Below, in pieces: positions 12,674 to 46,638 of a DNA stretch of 64,000 bases; the stretch's first letter is position 1, and each line of letters begins with the position of its first letter. The notes under the pieces were generated by a model that was given only the letters and a program-made list of their open reading frames with translations, searched no databases and had not been told where the DNA came from. Both the position numbers and the translations under genes were made by a program. Origin of the DNA: Planctomycetia bacterium (GTDB lineage Bacteria; Planctomycetota; Phycisphaerae; Phycisphaerales; SM1A02); assembly GCA_005776885.1 (NCBI GenBank), contig SXOD01000011.1:1-64000 (forward strand), in the 5' to 3' direction.

Positions 12674-12746
12674 AACGTCCCACCCCGTTATCGGTGGAAA
12701 TGTGACCCTGGAGGGCACATTTCCACCGATAACGGGGGCGGACCTT
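12674..12746. repeat. 75-bp palindromic element, copy 1
   Basis: Hairpin at 12686-12734 (arms begin CGTTATCGGTGGAAATGTG), with outer arms AACGTCC at 12674-12680 and GGACCTT at 12740-12746. The left arm carries one extra-A variant (GTGACCCT). It lies 192 bases before the DUF559 gene. Confidence 0.9.
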
Positions 12747-14121: not shown

Positions 14122-14196
14122 AACGTCCGGGGGCGGTTATCGGTGGAAATGTGCCCTTGGAGGGCACATTTCCACCGATAACCGAGAGCGGACCTT
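14122..14196. repeat. 75-bp palindromic element, copy 2
   Basis: A perfect hairpin: two identical 23-bp arms with a TGG loop at 14135-14183. Outer arms are AACGTCC at 14122-14128 and GGACCTT at 14190-14196, each six bases from the hairpin. It begins 51 bases after the DUF559 stop and ends five bases before a TACAGT box. Confidence 0.95.
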
Positions 14197-35008: not shown

Positions 35009-35083
35009 AACGTCCTTCCCCGGTTATCGGTGGAAATGTGCCCCCCAGGGGCACATTTCCACCGATAACCCAGCCCGGACCTT
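35009..35083. repeat. 75-bp palindromic element, copy 7 (compensatory base changes)
   Basis: Hairpin at 35022-35070, outer arms AACGTCC at 35009-35015 and GGACCTT at 35077-35083. Near the loop, GCCCC pairs with GGGGC where most copies have GCCCT with AGGGC. Both sides changed together, keeping the stem paired. Confidence 0.93.
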
Positions 35084-36325: not shown

Positions 36326-36400
36326 AAGTTCCCTCCCCGGTTATCGGTGGAAATGTGCCCTTCAAGGGCACATTTCCACCGATAACCGGGGTCGGACGTT
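36326..36400. repeat. 75-bp palindromic element, copy 8
   Basis: A near-perfect hairpin at 36339-36387 with stem extended to 24 bp (CCCTT and AAGGG) and a one-base loop. Outer arms are AAGTTCC at 36326-36332 and GGACGTT at 36394-36400. It lies between convergent genes, 56 bases after the dus stop. Confidence 0.93.
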
Positions 36401-37860: not shown

Positions 37861-37888
37861 TTGATTCCGGGCCGGCGCGACTTACACT
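37861..37888 (+). promoter_or_regulatory. Promoter of the ECF sigma / CHAT operon
   Basis: TTGATT (37861-37866), a 16-base spacer, then TACACT (37883-37888), seven bases before the ATG. It resembles a housekeeping sigma-70-type promoter, with almost no leader. Confidence 0.5.
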
Positions 37889-37895
37889 CAGGTGC

Positions 37896-38513
37896 ATGAC
37901 CGCCGTTCCGCCACGCCGCGTGACGATGACCGATGACGAGGTCGAACTCGTCCATCGTTGTGCGGAAGGCGATGAGGTGGCTTGGCGATCGCTGGTGGAT
38001 CGATTTTCCCCGCTGGCGTGGTCGATGGTCCGGCGCGCAGGCCTCTCGGATCACTCGGCGGAGGACGTGGTGCAGGAAGCCTTCACCGCGGCATGGCAGG
38101 CGCTTCCCACGATGCGGGAGCCAGATCGATTCGACGCCTGGCTCTCCACTACCTGTCGCAGAATGGCTCAGCGCAGGCGCGGGCTTGACCGGCGCGACGG
38201 GGCCAGCCTCTCCCCGGAATCCGCCAACGCCATCGAATCGGGAGACGACCCAGCACACGCGCTTGAGCTGGACGAGGACCGGCTGCTCGTTCGGGGCGCC
38301 CTGGCCCAGCTGACGCACAAGTGCCAGCTCCTGCTGCGCGCACTGATGCAGTTGGCCGCGTCCAGTCGGCGTGAGGGCCACGCCGACTACGAGGCCGTCT
38401 CGCGCCTCACGGGCATGCCGACGGGTTCGATCGGACCGACCCGACAACGGTGCCTGGACGCCTTGGCCTCGAAATTGCTGCGATTCGGACTCCGTGTATC
38501 CAAACCCACCTAG
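37896..38513 (+). CDS. ECF-type RNA polymerase sigma factor
   Basis: A 205-residue sigma factor. Region 2 has WRSLVDRFSPLAWSMVRRAG and SAEDVVQEAFTAAWQALP. The linker is Asp/Glu rich. The region 4-like segment is YEAVSRLTGMPTGSIGPTRQRCLDAL, including a GSIGPTR turn typical of planctomycete ECF groups. It would direct RNA polymerase to a private set of promoters. It heads a four-gene operon with tight or overlapping junctions: an unknown protein, a TPR-CHAT protease and a secreted subtilase. No membrane anti-sigma factor is next to it. Confidence 0.88.
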   Translation: MTAVPPRRVTMTDDEVELVHRCAEGDEVAWRSLVDRFSPLAWSMVRRAGLSDHSAEDVVQEAFTAAWQALPTMREPDRFDAWLSTTCRRMAQRRRGLDRRDGASLSPESANAIESGDDPAHALELDEDRLLVRGALAQLTHKCQLLLRALMQLAASSRREGHADYEAVSRLTGMPTGSIGPTRQRCLDALASKLLRFGLRVSKPT

Positions 38514-38542
38514 CCGGCACTCTCTGGGCGCAAAGGCACCCC

Positions 38543-39154
38543 ATGACTGACTCCACACAGCTCCACGCCGACCTCCCAGAACCCGATTGGCTGGTCCAGC
38601 GCCTCAGCCAACACGGCGTGACTGTGGCGCGAGCGCACTCCATCGCGCTCGTCGCGAGCGAGCTGCTCGGAGACACGGTGCCCGCGACCCTCTTGGACCG
38701 GCTGAGGCAGATCCCGGCCGCGACGCGCACCGCTCCCCTGACATCGGCCCTTTCCGCCGTCGATGAGTGGCTGGCGAAGGCTCGAGAGTGGATCACGCGC
38801 GGGTGGACGGCCGAGTCTCCGGTGGCGGCGACGGTCGCGCTCCGAGGACATCCAAGTGCCGATCGATTCCGTGTCAAGGGCAACTGTGGGCTCCTTGGGC
38901 TCGATGTCGAGTGCGAGCGCTCCGCCGATGGTGCCGCATGGGACCTGACGGGGGCCATCACGTCGCCAGACGAGGCGCCCGCCGGACTGGTCATTCGATT
39001 CACCCACGATGATCACGCGGACTCGGCCGGGATCTCCTCGACGATCGACGACTTGGCCATGTTTCGCGCTCGCCTCCCCGCGGGCCAGTATTCCATCTCC
39101 ATTGGCTCGCCTGCGCAGGATGCGGTACCCCTGGCCAGTCTGAGCCTCCCGTGA
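38543..39154 (+). CDS. Unknown protein in the ECF-CHAT operon (candidate sigma regulator or protease substrate)
   Basis: A 203-residue soluble protein with no membrane helix or signal peptide and no family I recognise. Residues 1-90 are predicted helical (DWLVQRLSQHGVTVARAHSI, SALSAVDEWLAKAREWI). Residues 95-203 look beta-rich (VALRGHPSADRFRVKG, LAMFRARLPAGQYSISIG). It starts 29 bases after the sigma gene, with AAAGG upstream, and its stop overlaps the GTG start of the CHAT gene (GTGA). Its place between a sigma factor and a TPR-CHAT protease makes it a candidate sigma inhibitor or cleavage target. This is inference from context only. Confidence 0.7.
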   Translation: MTDSTQLHADLPEPDWLVQRLSQHGVTVARAHSIALVASELLGDTVPATLLDRLRQIPAATRTAPLTSALSAVDEWLAKAREWITRGWTAESPVAATVALRGHPSADRFRVKGNCGLLGLDVECERSADGAAWDLTGAITSPDEAPAGLVIRFTHDDHADSAGISSTIDDLAMFRARLPAGQYSISIGSPAQDAVPLASLSLP

Positions 39155-41970
39155 CGACGCCCGCCCCACACGCACACCAACTCCTTGCAGCGCGACTCCA
39201 CGCAGCGCAGGGTGCGGTTGCGCACGCTCCATCGGAGGCTGCGGCGACGCTCGCAGAGATCACGCGCGACGCCGTCCAGGCCGGTGACACGGCGATCGCT
39301 GCCACATCGGCTCGCCTGCGCGCACGAGCCCTGGCCTACCTCGGCGACTACGACGCCAGCATTGTTGCGGCACGGGAATGCGGCTCGATGGCCAGCGCTG
39401 CGGGCCTCGCCGAGGAATGTGCCCGGGCGCGACTGGCCGCGATGCATGCCCTGGTGGAGTCCGGACGATTTGATGAAGCCGAGTCCGAGGGCCTTCGAGC
39501 CCGCGAGCTGCTCGTCTCCCTCGACCGCAGCGACCTCGTGGCGAGGGCGGAGATCAACCTGGGCATCCTGCACCAACGGCAGGGGCGACTGGACGAGGCT
39601 CGCACGCGGTTTGACGCCGCGGCCCCGGCCCTGGCATCCGAACCATTGATCCTGGCCCAGCTCCAGAACAATCGCGCAGAAGTCCTGCTGCGACTCTACG
39701 ACTTCGAGGGCGCTGGCCACGACTTTGCGGCCTCGCACCTGGCGAACATGGCCGCCGGTGCCTCCGTCAACGCCTCCATTGCACTTGGCAACCTCGCCGA
39801 CCTCGAGGCCCGACGCGGCGAATGCGGTGCGGCACTCCGGTCCTTCGAGTCGGCCATCGCGACACTCGCGGGGACGTCAAGTGACACCCACGTCCTTCGC
39901 CTGCGCGCCGAACGGGCCGAGGTCATGGACTCTGTCGGCCTGCACAATGCGGCCCGGGTGGAGCTCGCGTCGGTGCTGGAATCACTGGAGCGTCACGGGC
40001 TTCGACGCGAAGCCGCACGCGCCCGCGTGGCGCTGGGAAGGTCGTGGCAGCACTCGGGTTCGCGCGCCAGTGCCCAGACGCACCTGCTGGCTGCGCAAGC
40101 GCAGTTCGCGGGACTGGGCGATGATCTCGAGGCGGCTCGAGTCACCGTGGACCTTGCCGACCTCGCGTTGGAGGCTGGTGAATGGGCACTCGCTGAGTCA
40201 CTGGCACGAACAGCGCTCGCCGTGGCCGGACTCGGTCGTGTCGACCGATCTCGCGCCAATCTCCTGCTCTCTGCCGCCGCCATCCAGCGCGGCGCCTGGG
40301 ATGAGTCTCTTGCCCAGGCCGACCTCGCTCGCTCGACCGCCGGCGATGTGGCTCCCTTGGTGGCCGCCGCTGACCTGTTGGGAGCGCGCGCATCCCGCGG
40401 TTCGGGCAAGATCGACCAGGCGATGGCCCTGGCGCGCCGTGCGGCCGCCTCGCTGGATCGCCTCCGCACGGACCTGCCCGCTCGCCGATTCCGCCTGGCG
40501 GACAGCTCCGCGACCGACGCGCACCGACTGGTGGCATCGATCGTGCTTGCGCAGCCGCGGCCAGATGCGCTCCTCCTCGCGTGCGCCATGGATGCATCGG
40601 AAGGGACGCGCCACGATGAGGAGCGGGCCCTGGCGATCGAGTCGCTCTCGAGCGGCACCGACGCGCCGACCAACGCGGGGGCCGAGGCGGTGGCCGACGC
40701 GGCGACCGATGCACTCGTGTCACGCCGCGACGGCCTGCTCGCCGACCTCAACGCGATCTACTCGATGGTTGCCGACTCACGCGCGTCGGACTCGCGCCAG
40801 AACTCCTGGCGGCAGCGAGTGGCCACCATCGAGTCTTCGCTGGATGCCATCGAGGCCGACTTGGAGACTCGAGGATTCCAGGCCACCCACGTCGCCCCAC
40901 CCGACGCCGCACCGGCGCTGGAGTCGATGCCGACGGACACGCGCATCATTCGATTCGGCGTGGTCGATCGTTCACTCGTCGCGGCCGTCGTCACCAGGGA
41001 CTCTCCCAGAGTGGTCACGTTGTGCCCCGCGGCCGAAGTGGATCGACTCGTTCGTGCCCTGCTGTTCCACATGCGCGGCGCCGTCGCGTCACCGGACGAA
41101 GCGCCTGTGGCCGACGGCACGGTGCGCCGAATCATTGGCGCGATTGAGGCGCTCGCCCTCACGCCCGTCCTCGAAGTGGGCGGAGGCGACTGCTTCATTG
41201 TTCCGTCGGGACCGCTCTCGCTGCTCCCGCCGCTGGCGTGCGAGTCCATCACTCGGCGTGTCGGGGAGATGCACCTTGTTCCCTCGCTGCGCGATGCACT
41301 CCGCGCCGCGACGAGGCAGGAGCAGCAGGAGCAGGCGGCGCAACACCCACACTCCGGTGCCATTCGCGAACCATCCACGATGAGGGTCTTGGTGGTGGAT
41401 CATGACGATGGCACGCTCCCCGGCGCCACCGGCGAGTGCGATGCCATCGCCAGCTCGTGGTCCCTCGTCGGCGCATCGGTGGATCGACTGAGCGGTTCCC
41501 AGGCGACCGTCTCCAGCGTGATCGGATCGTGCCGACGCGCCGATGTCGTGCACCTTGCATGCCACGGCTGGTTCAGCGGATCCTTGGAAGGGGCCAGCGG
41601 GCTCCGACTCTCTGATGGGTGGCTCACCCGTCAACTGGTCCGCCGATGTCGACTCCAGGCACGGGTCGTCGTCCTCTCCGGATGCGAGACTGGCCCCGGG
41701 CGCGCGCACGATGGGCTTGACAACTCGCCGCCTTCGGGCCTCTTTGCCTCGTTCTTGGCGGCCGGTGCCGGCTCCGTCGTGTCGACGCTGTGGCCCGTCC
41801 GCGACGATATTTGTGCCTTCAGCATGGACTTGCTGCACCGCATGTGGCAGAATGGATCAGCTGTTTCGCTGGCTGGCTCACTCGCACAAGTCGCCGACGC
41901 AGTGCGTGATCGCTCGCCACACCCCTGTCACTGGGCTCCGCTCACGTTGTTCGAGAGAGGTTCGACATGA
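39151..41970 (+). CDS. TPR-CHAT protein (caspase-like protease)
   Basis: A 939-residue cytoplasmic protein. Residues 1 to about 430 are tetratricopeptide-like helical repeats (for example AGLAEECARARLAAMHALVESG and GRVDRSRANLLLSAAAIQRG). A helical linker follows. The C-terminal 300 residues are a CHAT domain: VLVVDHDDG, then the catalytic His805 in VVHLACHGWFSG and Cys845 in VVLSGCETGPG, followed by LFASFLAAGAGSVVSTLWPV. CHAT domains are caspase/separase-related cysteine proteases switched on through their TPR part. GTG 39151 overlaps the preceding stop and its own stop overlaps the subtilase start (ATGA), so all three are translationally coupled. Confidence 0.9.
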   Translation: MTTPAPHAHQLLAARLHAAQGAVAHAPSEAAATLAEITRDAVQAGDTAIAATSARLRARALAYLGDYDASIVAARECGSMASAAGLAEECARARLAAMHALVESGRFDEAESEGLRARELLVSLDRSDLVARAEINLGILHQRQGRLDEARTRFDAAAPALASEPLILAQLQNNRAEVLLRLYDFEGAGHDFAASHLANMAAGASVNASIALGNLADLEARRGECGAALRSFESAIATLAGTSSDTHVLRLRAERAEVMDSVGLHNAARVELASVLESLERHGLRREAARARVALGRSWQHSGSRASAQTHLLAAQAQFAGLGDDLEAARVTVDLADLALEAGEWALAESLARTALAVAGLGRVDRSRANLLLSAAAIQRGAWDESLAQADLARSTAGDVAPLVAAADLLGARASRGSGKIDQAMALARRAAASLDRLRTDLPARRFRLADSSATDAHRLVASIVLAQPRPDALLLACAMDASEGTRHDEERALAIESLSSGTDAPTNAGAEAVADAATDALVSRRDGLLADLNAIYSMVADSRASDSRQNSWRQRVATIESSLDAIEADLETRGFQATHVAPPDAAPALESMPTDTRIIRFGVVDRSLVAAVVTRDSPRVVTLCPAAEVDRLVRALLFHMRGAVASPDEAPVADGTVRRIIGAIEALALTPVLEVGGGDCFIVPSGPLSLLPPLACESITRRVGEMHLVPSLRDALRAATRQEQQEQAAQHPHSGAIREPSTMRVLVVDHDDGTLPGATGECDAIASSWSLVGASVDRLSGSQATVSSVIGSCRRADVVHLACHGWFSGSLEGASGLRLSDGWLTRQLVRRCRLQARVVVLSGCETGPGRAHDGLDNSPPSGLFASFLAAGAGSVVSTLWPVRDDICAFSMDLLHRMWQNGSAVSLAGSLAQVADAVRDRSPHPCHWAPLTLFERGST

Positions 41971-43457
41971 CCCGATCGATTCGAATGTCGGTGCTGCAAC
42001 TGCTGTCCCTCGCCGCTTGGTCGATGTCAGCGTTTGGGCAGGCCGCGGACCACTGCTCCCAACCAAGTGCCGCCATCGCCGACCGCGTCCACCTGGCGCA
42101 CGACGACACGGTATCCGCGTCGCAGGCGATTGCGGCGGTCCAGTCGGCGGCGCCGGGGCTCGTGCTCACGCCGTTGGACTCCATTCCCGGACGCAACATC
42201 CTGCTTCTCTCCGCATCGTGGCCCAATGGCTGGACCGTGGAACAGGCGTCAGCGTGGATGGAATCGGTCGCCACGCTGGGACTGCCTGGTGTCGTGTGGG
42301 GGGAGATCGAGTACGCCGGCCGTGTCCCCGAAGGTGGGACTGGCAGCATCTTTGTGGACGAAGGCCCTGACCTCTCCATCATTCCGGAGCAGTACGCGTG
42401 GCAGACGCTGGGCATCGACCCTGCACAGCAGCTTGCCTCAGGCGCGTCAACCGTGGCCGTCTTGGACACGGGGATCGACCCGCTGCATCCGCTCCTCGTG
42501 GGTCGGCTGGCCATTGGTGGATGGGACTTTGTGGCACGGTCAGGTGACACGACCGATCGGCCTGATGGCGCTGACTCTGATAGTGATGGAGTCGCCAATG
42601 AATTGGTGGGACACGGGACGTTTGTCGCGTCGCTCATCGCCAGCGCGGCGCCTGGTGCACGGATCCTTCCCGTGCGGGTCTTGGATGCCGATGGCGGCGG
42701 GAGCCTGTGGAACCTCGCTCGCGGACTCTTCCACGCCATCGACCGCGGCGTCGAGGTCATCAATGTAAGCATCACCTCGACCTACAGCTCTGAGGCGGTG
42801 GAACTGGCCTTGGACGAGGCTGCGATGCATGGCATCACGGTGGTCGCCAGTGCCGGCAACTGTGATTCCGACACTCGCATGTTTCCCGCAGCAAAGTCGG
42901 GCGTCCTCGCCGTCGCGGCCACCGACCACCTCAATCACCGCGCCGTGTTCTCCAGCTATGGCGACTGGGTCTCGCTGGCCGCGCCAGGTGCCTCAGTGCT
43001 TGACTCGAACGGAACCCCCGCCAACACCATTCTCGGCGCAGGGAGGTCGTCTACAGACACGCCGGGAGTCGTCGCGGCATCGGGCACCAGTTTTGCGGCA
43101 CCCCTTGTCGCCGCCGCGGCCGCGATGGTTCGTGCGCAGCATCCCGAGTGGCCAGCTGACGACACGACCGCAGAGGCCATATCCGACCTGCTCCTCGACA
43201 CGGCGCAGTCGCTCGTGCCTTCCGATCCGCAGTGGGCGCCGTGGCTTGGGGCCGGGCTCCTTGATGTGTCGGCGGCCGTCGCATCGGGGCCGGCCCAGCC
43301 TCGTGTGGGTGACCTTGATGGCGACGGTGTCGTTGGGGCGTCTGACCTCGCGGCCGTTCTCGGCGCCTGGGGACTGGTGCACACCAGCGCAGACATCGAC
43401 GGCGACGGAATCGTGTCGGCCAGCGACCTCGCGGCAGTGCTTGGGAACTGGGGCTGA
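41967..43457 (+). CDS. Secreted subtilisin-like serine protease (S8) with dockerin-like tail
   Basis: A 496-residue exported protease. The signal peptide is within MTRSIRMSVLQLLSLAAWSM. An inhibitor-like prodomain spans roughly residues 30-120. The catalytic domain has Asp167 (VAVLDTGIDPLHP), His216 (ELVGHGTFVASLI), oxyanion Asn298 (VVASAGN) and Ser375 (VAASGTSFAAPLV). The C-terminus carries two EF-hand loops (DLDGDGVVGASDLAAVLGAW and DIDGDGIVSASDLAAVLG). The start overlaps the CHAT stop codon, so it is the fourth gene of the ECF operon. This protease should act outside the cytoplasm, whereas the CHAT protease is inside. The stop lies immediately before palindromic copy 9. Confidence 0.92.
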   Translation: MTRSIRMSVLQLLSLAAWSMSAFGQAADHCSQPSAAIADRVHLAHDDTVSASQAIAAVQSAAPGLVLTPLDSIPGRNILLLSASWPNGWTVEQASAWMESVATLGLPGVVWGEIEYAGRVPEGGTGSIFVDEGPDLSIIPEQYAWQTLGIDPAQQLASGASTVAVLDTGIDPLHPLLVGRLAIGGWDFVARSGDTTDRPDGADSDSDGVANELVGHGTFVASLIASAAPGARILPVRVLDADGGGSLWNLARGLFHAIDRGVEVINVSITSTYSSEAVELALDEAAMHGITVVASAGNCDSDTRMFPAAKSGVLAVAATDHLNHRAVFSSYGDWVSLAAPGASVLDSNGTPANTILGAGRSSTDTPGVVAASGTSFAAPLVAAAAAMVRAQHPEWPADDTTAEAISDLLLDTAQSLVPSDPQWAPWLGAGLLDVSAAVASGPAQPRVGDLDGDGVVGASDLAAVLGAWGLVHTSADIDGDGIVSASDLAAVLGNWG

Positions 43458-43523
43458 TCCCGGTTATCGGTGGAAATGTGCCCTTGGAGGGCACATTTCC
43501 ACCGATAACCGCCAGGGGACGTT
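43456..43523. repeat. Palindromic element, copy 9 (left outer arm missing)
   Basis: A perfect hairpin at 43462-43510 identical to copy 2, right outer arm GGACGTT at 43517-43523. The left outer arm is absent: the subtilase stop codon (43455-43457) lies where it would be. Between convergent genes. Confidence 0.93.
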
Positions 43524-46086: not shown

Positions 46087-46638
46087 ATGCCCGACCATGA
46101 CTGGGCTCGCTTGGCCACCGAGTCTCTCCGCCGCGGCGACCCAGCCGCCCTCGCGGAGGTGTACGACCGGCTTGCCGCCGGAGTGTGCGCGTCGGTGGTC
46201 CGCGCCACTCGCCTCAGCACTGACTTCGCCATGGACTGCGTGCACGACACCATGCTGACTCTCGCGGCCAAGCCTCCCCGCTGCGGCAGCGAAGGTGAGC
46301 TTCGCGCGTGGATGCGGACCGTGGCGATCAACCACGCAAGGACCCGGCTCGTCTCGGAGGTCCGGCGGTCCCGTCGCGAGGCCGCCGTCGCCGAAGCGTC
46401 GGATTCAACAAGCGCCCCCGTCGCGCCGGTGGCTGCGTTGGAACAACACGCCCAGGCGCGGGAAGCGCTGGCACTGGCCCAGTCGGCGCTTTCGCGCGAA
46501 GAGTTCGCCGTCGTGGACCTCGTCCTCTGGCGGGGCTTCACACGACGCGACGCGGCCGGGATCGTGGGCAAGAGCCTGGCGACGGTGGATCGAGCGATGG
46601 CGCGCGCGTTGTCAATCATTCGAGGATCTGCCGGATGA
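46087..46638 (+). CDS. ECF-type RNA polymerase sigma factor (second in window)
   Basis: A 183-residue sigma factor. Region 2 reads DPAALAEVYDRLAAGVCASVVR and MDCVHDTMLTLAAK, with RAWMRTVAINHARTRLVSE. Region 4 reads LSREEFAVVDLVLWRGFTRRDAAGIVG and ATVDRAMARALSIIRG. It differs from the one at 37896. Its stop overlaps the start of a membrane-anchored downstream gene (ATGA), the usual layout for a sigma/anti-sigma pair. TAGCGT lies eight bases before the ATG. Confidence 0.88.
   Translation: MPDHDWARLATESLRRGDPAALAEVYDRLAAGVCASVVRATRLSTDFAMDCVHDTMLTLAAKPPRCGSEGELRAWMRTVAINHARTRLVSEVRRSRREAAVAEASDSTSAPVAPVAALEQHAQAREALALAQSALSREEFAVVDLVLWRGFTRRDAAGIVGKSLATVDRAMARALSIIRGSAG

Follow-up and report, generated by a model that had tools for sequence, protein, structure and literature searches.

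The 64,000-nucleotide stretch analysed here (the window; contig SXOD01000011.1 of assembly GCA_005776885.1) comes from a planctomycete genome of 2.49 Mb in 83 contigs and carries a compact locus of four same-strand genes. These encode an extracytoplasmic function (ECF) sigma factor, a middle protein of 203 residues (P0002), a caspase-like protease that joins tetratricopeptide repeats to a CHAT domain (TPR-CHAT), and a secreted subtilase (Table 1). The best explanation of the locus, in which we place slightly more belief than doubt, is a conserved regulatory unit of sigma factor, soluble anti-sigma factor, TPR-CHAT protease and subtilase, wherein the anti-sigma factor would be cleaved by CHAT. 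The unit, its conservation, its domain make-up and its intact catalytic residues are read directly from sequence.

The layout is as a first-pass annotation of the same DNA had described it. The sigma stop codon and the middle open reading frame are spaced by 29 bases, and the two following junctions are four-base overlaps, GTGA between the middle and TPR-CHAT genes and ATGA between the TPR-CHAT and subtilase genes. The families then assigned to the sigma factor, the TPR-CHAT protein and the S8 protease also agree with Pfam and NCBIfam. The sigma factor matches Sigma70_r2 (E 2e-12) and TIGR02937 (E 4e-15), the protease matches CHAT (E 1e-29) together with TPR_12, and the subtilase matches Peptidase_S8 (E 4e-39), with weak matches to Dockerin_1 in Pfam and dockerin_GC in NCBIfam.

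All four genes were found together at 70 non-redundant loci (loci with all four genes, duplicates removed) in Planctomycetota, Acidobacteriota and Actinomycetota, and partial loci were found in Chloroflexota and Gemmatimonadota. Sixty of the 70 keep the order sigma, middle gene, TPR-CHAT, subtilase; the ten exceptions comprise six loci with the subtilase first, two actinobacterial loci with CHAT before sigma, and two loci with one gene inverted. The middle gene is co-directional with the sigma gene in 69 loci and adjoins the CHAT gene in 68, frequently with a four-base overlap. Further, the pairwise distance matrices of the four proteins correlate (rho 0.29-0.51 versus permutation maxima of 0.11-0.20). 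Because of the number of loci, the order kept in most of them and the correlated matrices, the co-occurrence of the four genes is far beyond chance. The gene order, for which the first-pass annotation had proposed a search in other planctomycetes, is thus conserved far outside close relatives and in several phyla, and we regard the unit as real, conserved and probably functional.

A CHAT match was obtained in 41 of 201 genomes of the window's order, and nearly all the loci retrieved there show a sigma gene, a middle open reading frame of about 175-250 residues, CHAT and a subtilase. Scanning named genomes yielded 78 loci and placed the unit in many Phycisphaerales, in Acidobacteria (L120; loci are cited by L numbers) and in other phyla. 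The CHAT scan of genome contigs was made with eight closer sequences, and further sampling covered other classes of Planctomycetota and the phylum of an Acidimicrobiales genome. Complete units are present in Actinomycetota (L221, L223-L228), while in Chloroflexia one locus runs from sigma through the middle gene and CHAT to the contig end (L215) and another shows CHAT and subtilase from the contig start (L112). The window genome itself has one other CHAT gene, which belongs to a second, diverged copy of the whole unit: sigma, a middle protein of 183 residues, CHAT and subtilase, with 18-36% identity to the window copy and with L062 as the nearest relative of all four proteins. The joint conservation of the four genes is new, as is their occurrence outside Actinobacteria, where Planctomycetota are a major host group.

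The second new element is that the middle protein can be assigned, as a prediction, to the anti-sigma factors. Middle-protein sequences are highly diverged, often with less than 20% identity to the window copy, and are linked by profiles; a single-sequence search of 294 planctomycete genomes with P0002 found the protein itself and one weak match. A leave-one-out family profile, from which the window protein was excluded, finds the window copy with E 8e-19 over residues 30-203. When 44 family members were scanned singly against the 24,736 Pfam models, CarboxypepD_reg was recognized in 15 (best 5.6e-6) and zf-HC2 in seven (best 1.8e-5), with the other listed families in at most three members each. 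Searched against 177,635 PDB sequences, the family profile matched the anti-sigma factors DdvA (0.001), RslA (0.003), MucA (0.017), RseA (0.03) and RsiW (0.2). These matches are confined to profile positions 3-78, and positions 138-202 match beta-sandwich domains. A profile made from zinc-less members only still matched MucA, RseA and RslA, weakly (0.024-0.3).

The zinc motif HxxxCxxC or HxxxxCxxC is present in the expected place at seven of the 70 loci, none of them in Phycisphaerales, and is absent in the window. Carriers of the motif, all in other lineages, are L109, L116, L132, L144, L146, L153, L177, L178, L179, L181, L215 and L217, of which L109, L116, L132, L153 and L215 come in addition to the seven. 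The motif is known to be variable in class I anti-sigma factors (ASDI), about half of which lack Hx3Cx2C (PMC7406223). Further, proteins matching zf-HC2 occupy the corresponding slot in ECF/CHAT loci of Gemmatimonadota and Acidobacteria that are more distant (L151, 1e-8; L142, 3e-7; L123, 4e-5), and a same-slot match at the ECF/CHAT locus L134 (2e-4) falls just under the cut-off. Based on the recurring Pfam matches, the PDB profile matches and the zinc motifs or same-slot zf-HC2 proteins, the family is predicted to consist of anti-sigma factors in which a zf-HC2-like class I anti-sigma domain at the N terminus is followed by a CarboxypepD_reg-like beta-sandwich. An AlphaFold2 model of the L077 member has helices at residues 8-15, 21-33, 35-55 and 61-71 followed by the beta-sandwich (mean predicted local distance difference test score, pLDDT, 86.5). 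In the window copy the corresponding parts are a helical anti-sigma-like region (about residues 1-90), a joint (about 91-106) and the beta-sandwich (about 107-203).

At L123, L134, L142, L151 and L152, all from Gemmatimonadota or Acidobacteria, the ECF and TPR-CHAT genes flank a membrane-anchored anti-sigma-like protein, which in L134 and L152 has a TPR-like tail of its own. These loci may represent a wider theme of ECF, anti-sigma factor and CHAT.

Several results weigh against the anti-sigma assignment. Taken alone, the window protein has no match in Pfam or NCBIfam. Its similarity to the family begins only at profile position 46 (positions 46-48 for the window and second copies), so that its anti-sigma helices 1-2 are either eroded or too diverged to be seen. 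A profile of 35 order-level members, short ones included, found no anti-sigma structure. Foldseek searches with full-length models gave no information on the helical domain, yielding generic Ig/FN3/SOD-like matches and placing ChrR tenth (E 0.025). For the window copy, AlphaFold2 does model four N-terminal helices before the beta-sandwich (mean pLDDT 79), the helices being of low to moderate confidence. We therefore grade the prediction as strong for the family and moderate for the window copy. The earlier proposal that the 203-residue protein might restrain the sigma factor is well founded as a prediction for the family, by virtue of the N-terminal anti-sigma domain, and is a moderate one for the copy about which it was made.

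The CHAT residues His801, His805, Cys845 and Asp885 are invariant across the 70 loci. The His805/Cys845 dyad and the subtilase triad Asp167/His216/Ser375 sit where the first-pass annotation had put them. The CHAT profile matches solved Csx29/TPR-CHAT chains and, weakly, separase, with which the His/Cys dyad and an LW-x-V-x-D segment line up. The middle protein has a near-invariant arginine (69 of 70 loci; Arg101 in the window, within the joint), which in the L077 model (Arg109) lies between the two domains, in the stretch modelled least confidently (residues 101-110, mean pLDDT 53). This arginine was considered as a separase-like P1 residue paired with CHAT Asp885, and the pairing was rejected. 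The residue that binds the P1 arginine in separase (C. thermophilum D2151) aligns four residues further on, at CHAT positions 888/889, which are T/A/S or mixed over the 70 loci. As D2151 is not kept, and as Craspase orthologues cut at non-conserved sites (PMC11106740), there is no ground for naming the conserved arginine as the cut site. A structural role is possible instead, which counts against the proposed cleavage. That CHAT cuts the middle protein is what we infer from analogy: Csx30 binds and inhibits CASP-sigma and is cut by Csx29, a precedent for a TPR-CHAT protease cleaving a sigma inhibitor (PMC10028731).

The subtilase triad Asp167, His216 and Ser375 and the oxyanion residue Asn298 are likewise present at all 70 loci, and the catalytic residues also scored 76 of 76. 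Nearly all copies have a signal-peptide-like N terminus. The dockerin-like tail, common in the subtilases of Phycisphaerales, is missing elsewhere and is therefore a habit of the lineage and not part of the mechanism. As the subtilase stays with the module even when encoded upstream or on the other strand, it is a true, integral member of the unit. Its gene may be a target of the sigma factor.

The sigma profile (A7) matches the solved ECF factors AlgU, RpoE and SigW, and the window sigma factor is one of two ECFs of its type in the genome. Cys143, Ser178, Gly180, Arg183, Arg185 and Cys186 are invariant over the 70 loci. Cys143 opens region 4 and Cys186 lies within the GSIGPTRxRCL motif; both might serve in structure or in redox chemistry. 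The 5' boundary of 37861 given by the first-pass annotation marks not a start codon but a TTGATT hexamer that lies upstream of the open reading frame, with 16 bases between it and TACACT. TACACT, the window's putative -10 element, ends 7 nucleotides 5' of the sigma start codon. A TANNNT element 6-11 nucleotides 5' of the start was found in 20 of 52 upstream regions, window included (shuffle mean 6.6, maximum 11). A TACACTG-like element 6-10 nucleotides before the start codon recurs in the window (37883-37888), L043, L046, L048, L053, L076, L088 and L094, which suggests leaderless transcripts. Autoregulation through an ECF-type promoter was rejected, the 52 regions upstream of sigma having shown no ECF-like consensus, only the TANNNT element in 20 of them. 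A promoter-like element of housekeeping type, such as that of the window, would suit constitutive production with post-translational control, though the hint is a weak one. In eight Phycisphaerales loci (L046, L047, L048, L049, L052, L053, L055, L076) the cassette is preceded by a second, divergently oriented ECF gene of a different type, and in L053 and L076 a dockerin-tailed secreted protein is encoded between the two.

In the proposed mechanism, the middle protein, a soluble anti-sigma factor that is zinc-less in the window lineage, would hold the ECF sigma factor inactive in the cytoplasm. The TPR superhelix of TPR-CHAT would sense a cytoplasmic signal, and the activated CHAT would cleave the anti-sigma factor, the likeliest place being the joint that connects its two domains. 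The sigma factor, once freed, would transcribe its regulon. The secreted subtilase would be a constant output or partner, probably acting on extracytoplasmic proteins, comparable to DegP in the sigma-E response. Sigma binding, the cleavage and where it falls, the sensing of a signal and the part played by the subtilase are predicted steps.

Other explanations of the same genes have to be weighed. CHAT, the subtilase or both might degrade the sigma factor itself without any anti-sigma step, as proposed for ECF54, the middle protein then being an adaptor or unrelated. We consider this unlikely, given that the middle family carries an anti-sigma domain and that a subtilase with a signal-peptide-like N terminus should not meet a cytoplasmic sigma factor. 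Similarly, the middle protein could be primarily an inhibitor, chaperone or scaffold of CHAT, with sigma binding secondary or shared and with release by dissociation instead of cutting. The attachment of the middle gene to CHAT speaks for such a role, kept as it is even where sigma is on the other strand (L182), as does the relation of CHAT to separase, with which securin is described as forming an inhibitory complex. However, the sigma factor is indicated as the partner by the anti-sigma domain and by the ECF gene that is always present, and the middle gene of L230 and L233 sits behind sigma and not in front of CHAT, so that we hold this account to be improbable as well.

The first-pass annotation had also raised a death system. 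In a suicide or anti-phage unit, CHAT would be the trigger and the subtilase or a sigma target would kill the cell. TPR-CHAT proteases do act in type III-E systems of clustered regularly interspaced short palindromic repeats (CRISPR) and in gasdermin systems, and subtilases occur in some defence systems (generic matches). However, the neighbours are mostly housekeeping genes, with no CRISPR, gasdermin or nucleotide-signal gene among those identified; PADLOC gave nothing specific, only generic subtilase/IetS matches to the protease; and the sole candidate effector is a subtilase that is secreted. Further, the unit occurs frequently in some orders, and its evolution is that of a stable module with vertical variation. 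The death or defence proposal is not supported, and we hold it to be very unlikely. It is also conceivable that the zinc-less copy in the window no longer functions as an anti-sigma factor, leaving the sigma factor constitutively active or regulated through CHAT alone. The late start of the profile matches in both copies of the window genome would fit such a loss. The modelled N-terminal helices argue against it, however, as do the other retained parts, including Arg101 and both catalytic centres, and we give this account very little credence.

The CHAT-cleaved anti-sigma factor is thus the explanation we retain. A broader proposal, which we advance tentatively and believe somewhat less than we doubt, is that a CRISPR-independent switch of sigma, anti-sigma and CHAT operates across phyla. 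The middle gene would encode the ECF54-type anti-sigma factor and native CHAT substrate, and CASP would be one RNA-guided instance of a general, probably older switch.

The first-pass annotation had likened the locus to Csx29, Csx30 and CASP-sigma of type III-E CRISPR systems (CASP/Craspase). The comparison is apt in logic: both have a TPR-CHAT protease with a His/Cys dyad, here aligning with Csx29 structures, together with an ECF/RpoE-like sigma factor, and a protein is encoded between the two, for which sigma inhibition is shown in CASP and predicted here. It does not extend to the middle protein. None of the PDB matches of three middle-family profiles, taken up to E 10, is a Csx30 chain, and the protein of about 200 residues has no detectable relation to the 565-residue Csx30. 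Further, no Cas7-11 or CRISPR RNA component is among the genes identified here, whereas the secreted subtilase is constant and the unit spans several phyla. The earlier annotation had noted no CRISPR, nucleotide-cyclase or sensor gene nearby; no CRISPR or nucleotide-signal gene is among the identified neighbours, and no Cas or defence gene was found among the eight flanking window genes, a check of these neighbours alone and not genome-wide. Because homology to Csx30 and a Cas neighbour were both looked for and not found, the window unit is not a type III-E CRISPR system.

The gene context itself is already on record. The mainly actinobacterial group ECF54 (Huang 2015; Casas-Pastor 2021; reviewed in PMC8999054) is reported with CHAT, subtilase and 'carboxypeptidase' proteins in its context and is described as lacking an anti-sigma factor. 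The context is shared, and the same four-gene unit was found in Actinomycetota; unlike ECF54 as described, the middle family here has an anti-sigma domain and most loci are in Planctomycetota. The ECF54 'carboxypeptidase' is probably the CarboxypepD_reg middle protein, and the sigma factors of the unit likely belong to ECF54, judged from gene context. A literature search on CHAT with ECF, subtilase or Planctomycetes returned the Craspase papers and the ECF54 remark and nothing else; Kaur et al. (2021) describe a different ECF/TPR/caspase context, with EACC2 and TRADD-N.

With ASDI proteins (MucA, RseA, RslA, RsiW, ChrR) the middle-protein family shares the N-terminal four-helix region, a gene beside its ECF gene and the coexistence of zinc-binding and zinc-less versions (cf. 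PMC7406223). It differs in that its members are predicted to be soluble and carry, where ASDI proteins have a transmembrane or cupin domain, a CarboxypepD_reg-like beta-sandwich, and its partner protease is a cytosolic CHAT, in contrast to the membrane cascade of site-1 and site-2 proteases. CHAT is the nearest bacterial relative of separase (peptidase C50), but the aspartate that reads the P1 arginine is replaced here, by Thr, Ala, Ser or other residues, and no securin-like protein is present.

Table 1. Features of the four-gene locus and its borders (window coordinates).
Feature	Position	Strand	Basis and remarks
Promoter-like TTGATT-16 bp-TACACT, possible leaderless start	37861..37888	+	read from sequence; putative
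ECF sigma factor, 205 aa	37896..38513	+	Pfam/NCBIfam; sigma4 signature GSIGPTRxRCL
Middle protein (P0002), 203 aa, predicted soluble anti-sigma factor	38543..39154	+	family profile, AlphaFold2 model
TPR-CHAT caspase-like cysteine protease, 939 aa, His805/Cys845	39151..41970	+	GTG start; Pfam, profile versus structures
Secreted subtilase (S8), 496 aa, Asp167/His216/Asn298/Ser375	41967..43457	+	Pfam; signal-peptide-like N terminus; GC-type dockerin-like C terminus
Perfect hairpin, copy of dispersed palindromic repeat, possible terminator	43462..43510	+	just 3' of operon

The eight flanking genes encode mostly housekeeping functions (Dus, an exonuclease, ScpB, ATP synthase epsilon); they also include a gene for a secreted PepSY protein and one for a further small sigma factor. 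The latter (46087-46638, 183 residues) is sigma-like, with regions 2 and 4 both under the Pfam cut-off, and the open reading frame after it has one hydrophobic segment and could encode its membrane anti-sigma factor. The hairpin behind the operon belongs to a dispersed, near-perfect 49-base palindrome (GGTTATCGGTGGAAATGTGCCC...) found in the window at 12686-12734, 14135-14183, 35022-35070, 36339-36387 and 43462-43510. Its half-sites number 13 in the window (among them 21915, 23209 and 29984) and 39 genome-wide versus none for the control. The genome has about 20 copies, mostly intergenic; some open reading frames read through them. The RNA is predicted to fold into a very stable hairpin (-47.5 kcal/mol, z -8.7), and the element is possibly a repetitive extragenic palindromic (REP)-like element or a shared terminator.

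CHAT proteases are common in bacteria, and their best-known substrates, Csx30 and gasdermin, are defence proteins. To our knowledge, very few bacterial CHAT proteases have a known substrate. Outside any CRISPR context and across many phyla, the unit offers a concrete candidate substrate, together with a candidate anti-sigma factor for sigma factors whose group has been described as lacking one. Should CHAT indeed cut the middle protein, a wholly cytosolic caspase-like protease would join the membrane cascades as a means of regulated anti-sigma proteolysis, and the sigma switch of type III-E systems would gain a plausible simpler counterpart.
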